A stretch of DNA of 64,000 nucleotides from the NCBI GenBank assembly GCA_002694745.1, contig NZMY01000016.1:1-64000 (forward strand), given 5' to 3'. Shown here one piece after another: positions 48,603-51,837 of the stretch (positions are counted from its first letter, which is position 1; each line of letters starts with the position of its first letter). Made by a program: the position numbers and the translations under genes. This stretch comes from Croceicoccus sp. (GTDB lineage: Bacteria; Pseudomonadota; Alphaproteobacteria; Sphingomonadales; Sphingomonadaceae). Under the pieces are notes generated by a model. That model worked only from the letters and a program-made list of their open reading frames with translations, had not been told where the DNA came from and did not search any database.

Positions 48603-49973
48603 ATGATCGCCAGACTGCTCGCCATGGCCGCCGCCTTGCTGGCCGCCCTGTCCGTCACCGCACGCGCCCAAGACCTGCTGATCCAGAACGTCCGGCTGAT
48701 CGACCTTTCCGCCGAAAGCCCGCAATTGAGCGCGCCGCAATCCGTGCTGATACGCGGCGACCGGATCGCCGCCATCGCGCCGGTCGGTGCCATCCCCGTG
48801 CCCGAAGGCGTCACCCCGATCGACGGAAACGGCGGCTATCTCCTCCCCGGCCTTACCGACATGCATGTGCACGTGTGGGATCAGGCCTCGCTCGGCTCCT
48901 ATCTGGCGCATGGGGTAACGGCGATCCGCAATGCCTCGGGCATGCCGTTCCATCTGGACCTCGCGCAGCGGATCGAGGCGGGCGAGCTGGCTGGCCCGCG
49001 CCTCCTCACCACCGGCCCGATCCTAAACAGCCACGGGGCGAACGAACAACTCAACCACCAGTTCGTCACCACCAGTGCCGAAGCGCGCGCCGCCGTCCGC
49101 TGGCAGCACGAGGCGGGCTTTCGCCACCTCAAGGTCTATTCCAATCTCACGCGCGAGGCATGGGCGGGCGTCAAGGCAGAGGCCGAGGCGCTGGACATGA
49201 CGATCATGGGCCACACACCCGAAGGCATCCGCGCCCAAGGCACACCCCGCGACCGTCCCTTCGACATGGCGTTCACCGATCTGCTCGATGCGGGCTTCGT
49301 CACGATCGAGCATGTCGAGAGCATCGTCTGGCACGGATTGCGGAACCGCCACGATCCGGCTGCCGCCCACGCGCTGGCGCAGCGCATCGCCGCATCAGGC
49401 ACGCCTGTCGATCCCACGCTGGTCGCCTTTCGCAACCTGCTCCACGTCGCCGAGACGAAGGGGGCCTATCTGCGGCGACCCGGCACCGAATGGATGAACC
49501 CGATGCTGGTCGCGCAGTCACAGGGCGAATACGACCGCTGGACGAACGAAGCGGTCGAACCCAACCGCGAGGCCTTTGCCTTCTACAAGCAGATGACGAA
49601 GATGCTGTCCGACGCGGGCGTCACGCTGGTCGACGAGCTGGAATTGCTGGTCGAAGCGGGCCTCTCCCCCGCTCAGGCGCTGCGCACCGCCACGCTGAAC
49701 CCCGCGCAGGTGCTGGGCGAGGACGCGACACGCGGCCGCATCGCGCCGGGCATGATCGCGGACATGGTGCTGGTGAACGCCGACCCGCTAGAGGATTTTA
49801 CCGCGCTGCGAAGCCCCGTGCTGGTCATCGCACAGGGCCGCCCTCACGACCGCGCCGCACTGGACGCCTTGCTGGACGAAGCCGCCAGACCCGACCTCGC
49901 CCGCACGCAGGCAAACGTGATCGCCGGGCTGCAGGCGCAGGGCACCGATGTCAGCGACCTGACGGGGGGCTGA
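48603..49973 (+). CDS. Amidohydrolase family protein lacking the catalytic Asp segment
   Basis: A 456-residue exported metal-dependent hydrolase (signal peptide MIARLLAMAAALLAALSVTA, cut near ARAQ). The N-terminal metal HxH is DMHVHV (H88, H90), Lys177 lies in HLKVYS, and H204 and H237 lie in GHTPEG and IEHVES, as in imidazolonepropionase-like enzymes. Where the family has GTDAG plus about 20 more residues before the HDELELLVEAG helix, this protein goes straight from SDAGVTL to VDELELLVEAGL. The essential Asp ligand is thus absent, apparently by in-frame deletion near 49620-49634. It may be inactive or use another residue. No stop or frameshift is present. Confidence 0.82.
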   Translation: MIARLLAMAAALLAALSVTARAQDLLIQNVRLIDLSAESPQLSAPQSVLIRGDRIAAIAPVGAIPVPEGVTPIDGNGGYLLPGLTDMHVHVWDQASLGSYLAHGVTAIRNASGMPFHLDLAQRIEAGELAGPRLLTTGPILNSHGANEQLNHQFVTTSAEARAAVRWQHEAGFRHLKVYSNLTREAWAGVKAEAEALDMTIMGHTPEGIRAQGTPRDRPFDMAFTDLLDAGFVTIEHVESIVWHGLRNRHDPAAAHALAQRIAASGTPVDPTLVAFRNLLHVAETKGAYLRRPGTEWMNPMLVAQSQGEYDRWTNEAVEPNREAFAFYKQMTKMLSDAGVTLVDELELLVEAGLSPAQALRTATLNPAQVLGEDATRGRIAPGMIADMVLVNADPLEDFTALRSPVLVIAQGRPHDRAALDALLDEAARPDLARTQANVIAGLQAQGTDVSDLTGG

Positions 49974-50061: not shown

Positions 50062-51525
50062 TCAATCCTCCGCCGCGTGTGCCTTGAACTTCTCGATCAG
50101 CTTCGCGAAATCGCCCGACATTGCTTCCTGCCGTGGCGGGAACTCCTTGAAGGTCATCACGTGCTGGGTCATGAAATCGATGATCGGCAGCAGCACCCAG
50201 CCCTTGTGCTCGGCCAGCTTGCGATTGACGTCGCCCCATTGCCGTTCATACGGGTCCATCAGGATGTTGGTGATCATCGGTCGTCCCAGATGGACCAGCG
50301 GGTTGTCCCATTTTCCTTCCATCTTCGCCGCGATGGTCACCTTCCACGGTCCGTATCGGACAGCCGTCAGATTGACCTCGTCGTAGTAGAAGTAATGCTT
50401 GCGCGCCGACGGTCCCTTGCCGGTAAACAGCGCGGTCTGGTCATAGCCGTCGAGGTGGACCTTGTATGTCTTGCCCTCGTGCTCGACGCCTTCCCTCAGC
50501 TTCTTGTCGATGTCGGACATGCCGACCAGCGCCGCGAAGGTCATGAAGAAATCCTCCATGGCAACGATATCCGAACTGACCTGCCTGGGCGGGATCTTTC
50601 CGGGATAGCGGATGACGCAGGGGACGCGGACGCCGCCTTCCCATGTGGTCCCCTTGTCCCCTCGAAACGGCGATGTGCCGCCTTCCGGCCACATGTACTG
50701 ATAGGCGCCGTTGTCGGTGGTATAGACGACGATGGTATCCTCGGCGATGCCCAGCTCGTCCAGCTTGTCCAGCAACTGGCCGACATGGCCGTCATGCTCT
50801 GCAAGACCGTCCCCATAGATGTCCGCTTCCGAAGCGCGCGACACGCCCTTTCGCTCGTCGAGCAAATGGGTGAACACATGCATGCGGCTGGCGCAATGCC
50901 AGACGAAGAAGGGCGTATCCTCCTTCACCTTGCGCTCCATGAAATCGGATGTCTTGGCGACGATCTCGTCGTCGAAGGTCTTCATGCGCTCGGTATCCAG
51001 CACGCCTTCGTCCTTGGTCTCGCCATCGGCGGAGCCGGAAATGACGCCGCGCACGCTCCATTTCTTCTCGAACTCCGACGTCTGGGGCCGGTCGGGGTCT
51101 TCCGGATCCTCGTTCGCGTTGAGGTGATAGAGATTGCCGAAGAACTCGTCGAAACCGTGACGATGGGGCAGATGCTCCTCCCGGTCGCCAAGGTGGTTCT
51201 TGCCGAACTGGGCGGTGGCATAGCCATGCATCTTCAGGATCTGCGCGATGGTCGGGTCCTCGGACGACATGCCTTGCGGCGCACCGGCGCAGCCCACGGT
51301 GGTCAGCCCCGTGCGAGCAGGCATCTGGCCGGTGATGAAGGCAGCCCGCCCGGCCGTGCACGACGGCTGGGCGTAAAAGGACGTCAGCTTGATGCCCTCA
51401 TCGGCTATCCTGTCGATATTGGGCGTGGGCACGCCCATGATGTCGCCGCCAAAGCAGCTGACATTCGAATAGCCGATATCGTCTCCGAAAATGACGAGGA
51501 TGTTGGGCTTTTTCTTGTCGGGCAT
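50062..51525 (-). CDS. Sulfatase (formylglycine-type arylsulfatase family)
   Basis: A 487-residue sulfatase. The active-site motif is CTAGR (Cys about 56 in PSCTAGRAAFITG), the C-x-A-x-R form that must be converted to formylglycine by a sulfatase-maturing enzyme. FGDDIG provides metal-binding aspartates, and later YTTDNGAYQ and WEGGVRVPCVIRYPGKI are standard. There is no signal peptide, so it is predicted cytoplasmic, which is unusual for arylsulfatases of this type. The ATG at 51525 was chosen with AAAGG 8 bases upstream; GTG at 51531 is an alternative. It is convergent with the amidohydrolase. Substrate unknown. Confidence 0.87.
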   Translation of the reverse strand: MPDKKKPNILVIFGDDIGYSNVSCFGGDIMGVPTPNIDRIADEGIKLTSFYAQPSCTAGRAAFITGQMPARTGLTTVGCAGAPQGMSSEDPTIAQILKMHGYATAQFGKNHLGDREEHLPHRHGFDEFFGNLYHLNANEDPEDPDRPQTSEFEKKWSVRGVISGSADGETKDEGVLDTERMKTFDDEIVAKTSDFMERKVKEDTPFFVWHCASRMHVFTHLLDERKGVSRASEADIYGDGLAEHDGHVGQLLDKLDELGIAEDTIVVYTTDNGAYQYMWPEGGTSPFRGDKGTTWEGGVRVPCVIRYPGKIPPRQVSSDIVAMEDFFMTFAALVGMSDIDKKLREGVEHEGKTYKVHLDGYDQTALFTGKGPSARKHYFYYDEVNLTAVRYGPWKVTIAAKMEGKWDNPLVHLGRPMITNILMDPYERQWGDVNRKLAEHKGWVLLPIIDFMTQHVMTFKEFPPRQEAMSGDFAKLIEKFKAHAAED

Positions 51526-51837
51526 GATCACGACCTTTCTAAGTAATCTTGAAAGACATGATCCGGGTTTAGGGCGCGAGTCTGAACCTTAGTATCGGGG
51601 TAAGGCACGAGTTCTGTCGCGGTTTCCACTGTCCTACAGCCCGGCCGTATCGTAACACCGCCGCTCGCCCGAAACGGCGATGCGGTTCTTTCCCAATGTC
51701 GATTTTCTCCGGATGTTTTCCCCGGCCCCGCGCGGTGTCACCTTTGGCCCGCAAGGCCAGCATTTCCGCGCCTTACGGCCGGGTGACAGCCCTTGTAGGA
51801 CGTGTCGCCTTTGTCACTTTTCGCCGGGCTTTACGCC
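51526..51837. other. Intergenic region between sulfatase and parC
   Basis: I see no gene in these 312 bases. They hold the sulfatase upstream region and the tail of the parC transcript. A weak inverted pair CGCC/GGCG occurs around 51660-51680, and the stretch near 51540-51600 is less GC-rich, as expected for a promoter. Short open frames are chance. Confidence 0.4.

Follow-up and report, generated by a model that had tools for sequence, protein, structure and literature searches.

A 51-bp in-frame deletion of the catalytic-aspartate segment in an otherwise intact amidohydrolase gene of Croceicoccus sp.

Introduction

What is a protein that keeps the profile match, the open reading frame and all but one of the metal ligands of an amidohydrolase, and has lost the segment carrying the catalytic aspartate? 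The question is raised by a gene at positions 48603-49973 (+ strand) of a 64,000-nucleotide stretch of Croceicoccus sp. DNA (hereafter the window: positions 1 to 64,000 of contig NZMY01000016.1, assembly GCA_002694745.1). Its frame runs from an ATG at 48603 to a stop codon ending at 49973 and encodes 456 amino acids plus the stop. In subtype I amidohydrolases, an HxH pair and an Asp bind the M-alpha metal, two further His bind M-beta and a carboxylated Lys bridges them (PMC11342369); the Asp coordinates, or hydrogen-bonds the hydrolytic water (PMC4407906). A preliminary description of the window, made from the letters alone, had called this Asp an essential metal or catalytic ligand, in agreement with these sources, and had proposed that either the enzyme is dead but retained, for instance as a binding protein, or the deletion is recent. 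In the limited body of literature searched, we found no paper on an inactive amidohydrolase of this kind, nor one on an amidohydrolase from a Croceicoccus genome.

Results

Pfam assigned Amidohydro_1 (PF01979) to the product of 48603-49973 over residues 79-412 (55.8 bits against a curated cut-off of 25). The top NCBIfam match was the Xaa-Pro dipeptidase model NF051886, far under its cut-off (105 vs. 500 bits). The N-terminus, MIARLLAMAAALLAALSVTARA, resembles a Sec signal peptide when judged by eye, and the gene belongs to a conserved group of amidohydrolases that are probably exported. The solved structures nearest by sequence were 2P9B, 4WHB and 3MTW, to which a profile search added the bottromycin amidohydrolase 6I5S. 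The Cc2672 L-Arg/Lys carboxypeptidase (PDB 3MTW) and the prolidase-like 2P9B, 3FEQ and 2QS8 were among the top sequence and fold matches, and the fold alignments put their identity to the window protein at about 20-24%. Unlike the window protein, 2P9B carries the Asp of strand 8, aligned as GTDTG.

Exactly 17 residues are missing from the window protein, an in-frame loss of 51 bp that takes away the GSDAG motif and with it the metal-ligand Asp. Its frame reads ...KMLSDAGVTLVDELELLVEAGL... across the junction, and the Croceicoccus mobilis protein (L112, identical to L001) has KILSESGVTLVAGSDAGIFTNIPGASLIDELDLLAEAGL in the same region. The junction lies at CGCTGGTCG (49624-49632, + strand), the point at which the homologues carry a further 51 bp (17 codons). 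In an alignment of 45 sequences (matches above 300 bits; the window's own copy L081, locus L027 and contained duplicates omitted), 20 well-filled columns were gapped in the window sequence. Seventeen of these are contiguous and were gapped in none of the 44 other near homologues; the remaining three lie in the signal-peptide region, where 4-6 other sequences were gapped as well. The open frame and this alignment bear out the in-frame loss described initially, the size of which had been put at about 20 residues. One further locus was set aside: at L027 1326-2807, on a draft Sphingomonadaceae contig, the frame of the homologue is interrupted a little way past the GSDAG segment and two overlapping frames match, possibly because of a frameshift in the draft. 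The same stretch stayed in the 45-sequence alignment as L124.

The remaining ligands were examined in a 106-row alignment, from which frames shorter than 300 amino acids, matches weaker than E 1e-30 and rows similar to one another over a single 80-residue stretch had been omitted. The H88-x-H90 pair after strand 1 (codons 48864-48872, + strand), the predicted bridging lysine K177 (49131-49133, +), H204 (49212-49214, +) and H237 (49311-49313, +) are all present in the window protein, as the preliminary description had stated, and were invariant in 106 of 106 rows. Thus, of the features of a subtype I binuclear site, the HxH, the Lys and the two further His were found and the Asp at the end of strand 8 was not. 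The Asp column was D in all 105 other rows (88/88 in an earlier count), and in 103/103 once rows at least 99% identical, including two near-duplicates left in the alignment, were collapsed; none of these homologues had the Asp at another position. The motif around it was GSDAG in 42, GSDSG in 6 and GTDAG in 4 of 52 other close homologues (above 300 bits). The GTDAG form expected at the outset is therefore not typical of the close homologues, but it was the most frequent form in more distant ones.

Two acidic residues, D344 and E345 (codons 49632-49637, + strand), now directly follow strand 8 and are the nearest conceivable candidates to replace the Asp. In 88 rows, column 344 was variable (D 25, E 25, Q 19, K 13, R 4, T 2) and column 345 was E throughout (88/88). 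We also considered the SDAG at residues 336-339 as a displaced catalytic motif and rejected it: it aligns with the helix end that precedes strand 8, relatives carry SESG or ADAG at this place, the flanking DNA can be aligned codon by codon to the pre-strand-8 region of L112 and L087, and residues 318-337 are a helix in the structure model of the window protein.

AlphaFold predicted a confident barrel for the window protein (mean pLDDT 93.3, pTM 0.90), as it did for L001 (mean pLDDT 93.4). Helix 8 spans residues 357-368 in the L001 model and contains D361-E362, the equivalents of D344-E345; in the window model it is predicted at 346-351 only, leaving D344-E345 between strand 8 and the helix, and residues 341-350 have a mean pLDDT of 94. 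The alignment drives both models, which held the window protein and 45 of the 80 homologue loci from genome contigs, so this confidence and the helix shift are weak evidence, and the models, alike for this reason, are no test of activity. The Foldseek match to 3MTW was slightly weaker with the deletion (TMt 0.70 for the window model vs. 0.75 for the L001 model).

Homologues were collected from a genus sample of 14 genomes, a family sample of 298, of which 15 matched at E 1e-60 or better, and an order sample of 396, of which 18 matched at E 1e-80 or better, the window's own genome being included in each; a further source was genome contigs, from which the best 80 of 141 confirmed loci were taken. 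Six strong same-genus orthologues (E 1.8e-127 or better; L087 in G011, L112 in G005, L103, L101, L113 and L104) were aligned with the window sequence, using best matches above 90 bits only. All six have the GSDAG segment and none has the deletion, which is the outcome, for these six, of the comparison with close orthologues that the preliminary description had suggested. The nearest, L087, is 79% identical to the window protein, and the L112 protein, from the same genus, is that of C. mobilis L001 (70-73% identical to the window protein); both have the same ligands and, except for the gap, the same layout, with the GSDAG segment in place. Seven of the 13 other genus genomes gave weaker matches only (best 6.9e-29, in G003) and are for this reason uninformative on the window gene.

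The possibility that the segment, or an intact copy of the gene, lies elsewhere in the host genome was rejected on a protein search, one degenerate DNA pattern and a motif scan of the window. The protein search of this genome gave five other matches; each was short and weak, the best reaching 37% over 97 residues, and no second copy was found. A degenerate DNA pattern for a G-x-D-A-G-I-like motif, covering some of the codons only, had one match, which fell on a different contig in a frame of 74 codons; this frame does not resemble an amidohydrolase. A six-frame motif scan of the window gave no match.

In the intact L001 gene, the segment lost in the window is flanked by CGCTGGTCG and CGCTGATCG, which are identical at 8 of 9 positions and lie exactly 51 bp apart. 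The window retains a single copy, CGCTGGTCG, at 49624-49632. Pairs at least 8/9 alike at separations of 9-150 bp are rare: L001 has 65 among 188,505 position pairs, and 1,413 bases of L087 have 111 among 188,079. Other pairs in the gene nonetheless equal this one or surpass it, some being identical at 9/9 (2 in L001 and 3 in L087). In L087, the nearest relative, the left copy has diverged, so the repeat of the true ancestor is only inferred.

The amidohydrolase is surrounded by genes for an adenosylhomocysteinase, a sulfatase and ParC, by a 157-amino-acid frame that matched no family and by a gene whose product was judged by eye to be peroxiredoxin-like (NCBIfam gave no match for it at 1e-10); these neighbours suggest no partner or new role for the window protein. 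In G011, parC also lies beside the intact gene, in the same relative orientation as in the window. No other window gene was found around the homologues in L001, L126 (G009) and L127 (G007), and shared surroundings are thus shown for G011 only. In the window, the sulfatase gene (50062-51531, - strand) separates the amidohydrolase from parC. G011 has a different frame of 248 amino acids at the corresponding position (L125 6025-6771), and no sulfatase match was present in the 15-kb G011 stretch, indicating that the interval between the amidohydrolase and parC varies within the genus. A 449-amino-acid frame that looks by eye like an insertion-sequence transposase lies just upstream of the intact amidohydrolase in G011 (L125 8809-10158).

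Selection was estimated with a codon model on 8 taxa and 420 codons (F3x4, FastTree topology); every column containing a gap had been removed, and then the first 20 of those left. The window's branch had an omega of 0.124, compared with 0.110 for the rest of the tree (LRT 0.2). An omega of 1 on the window's branch was rejected (2dlnL 34.4), and values of 0.06 and 0.22 were both already beyond the 3.84 limit; a first run with a slightly different topology agreed. The pairing of the window with L087 in the DNA tree has a support of just 0.662, and the length of the window's branch is rough since the branch is long (approximately 1.5 neutral changes per codon). None of the 57 positions invariant in the other 44 sequences was changed in the window; 33 of the 44 intact sequences, treated in the same way as controls, likewise had no departures at their own invariant positions, so in this respect the window gene behaves like a working gene. 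Departures were 2/94 at the 95% level, one of them at the junction, and 3/109 at the 90% level. Assuming neutrality from the deletion onwards, the time since then has a 95% upper bound of 0.061 neutral changes per codon, roughly 4% of the branch length of 1.52; this bound is conditional on neutrality after the deletion and cannot separate a recent event from an older one followed by selection. An old dead gene is disfavoured by it, an old gene retained in a different role is not.

Discussion

The best reading of this locus, to which we give a probability of about 0.78, is that a deletion inactivated an otherwise intact gene recently and, as far as sampled, in this lineage alone. The loss of the 51-bp in-frame segment likely took place between two short direct repeats, CGCTG[G/A]TCG, through slippage during replication or a comparable repeat-mediated process, as the arrangement in the intact relative suggests; the reading frame survives because the repeats lie 51 bp apart. 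With the segment went the last part of barrel strand 8 and the loop that bears the metal-binding catalytic Asp (D347 of L001). The deleted product is probably still translated and may fold, and a metal site without one ligand and the water-activating residue would most likely leave it catalytically dead: losing the Asp together with its loop should abolish hydrolysis. The deletion is probably recent, if the gene has been neutral since, because no other decay is seen in it.

The alternative that the protein is dead but retained under selection, as a binding or structural partner, is unlikely in our judgement. The frame is open, the window's branch is under purifying selection and the conserved positions have not decayed, all of which is compatible with a retained binding protein because selection on such a protein would also preserve residues. 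The superfamily offers precedents. CRMPs have the amidohydrolase fold without catalytic activity, and CRMP-4 keeps two of the six metal-binding residues (PMC4051505); an inactive Pseudomonas pseudo-dihydroorotase is required for transcarbamoylase activity, and a fungal pseudo-dihydroorotase domain lacks the zinc ligands (PMC7053772). These cases differ from the window protein. It keeps five of six ligands and lost the sixth by one deletion and, in contrast to the Pseudomonas protein, it has no known role. Moreover, the loss is seen in 0/6 strong same-genus orthologues, and the neighbouring adenosylhomocysteinase, sulfatase and parC genes hint at no partner. Between the two outcomes proposed at the outset, the evidence therefore leans towards the recent deletion, given that it is not shared within the genus, that purifying selection is like that in the rest of the tree and that invariant residues have not decayed; for retention as a binding protein there is no positive evidence.

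A real gene that contains the segment, collapsed in the assembly, is a still less probable explanation. The host genome (4.02 Mb) is a draft of 59 contigs with a contamination estimate of 4.77, and the lost segment is bordered by a near-repeat. However, the event is exactly in frame, which has a one-in-three chance, and a 9-bp near-repeat should be too short to mislead the usual assembly word lengths. Least credible is that the enzyme remains active, with D344 or E345 in place of the Asp or with a reduced metal site that suffices. All the other ligands are intact, the two acidic residues now follow strand 8 and, in the model, are predicted to lie outside the helix that holds their equivalents in L001; moreover, molinate hydrolase is active with one metal and one M-alpha His replaced (PMC4407906). 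But that enzyme retains its Asp373, the canonical Asp is present in 103/103 other homologues with no aligned sequence using a substitute, and the window protein has also lost the entire 17-residue loop around the site. It would be a considerable surprise if D344, or the otherwise invariant E345, drawn to the end of strand 8, served as a new metal ligand and so left the enzyme active, or re-purposed, with its canonical catalytic loop gone.

Under the preferred reading of a recent inactivating deletion, the change is confined to the window's genome among those compared and appears to be a young loss of function of the ordinary sort rather than a novel type of protein. It also carries a warning for annotation: the Pfam score barely changed (55.8 bits vs. 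57.9 bits for the intact L001) despite the lost catalytic Asp. The gene is a clean case of an in-frame, repeat-bounded deletion in which the function is probably gone while the frame and the profile match are kept.
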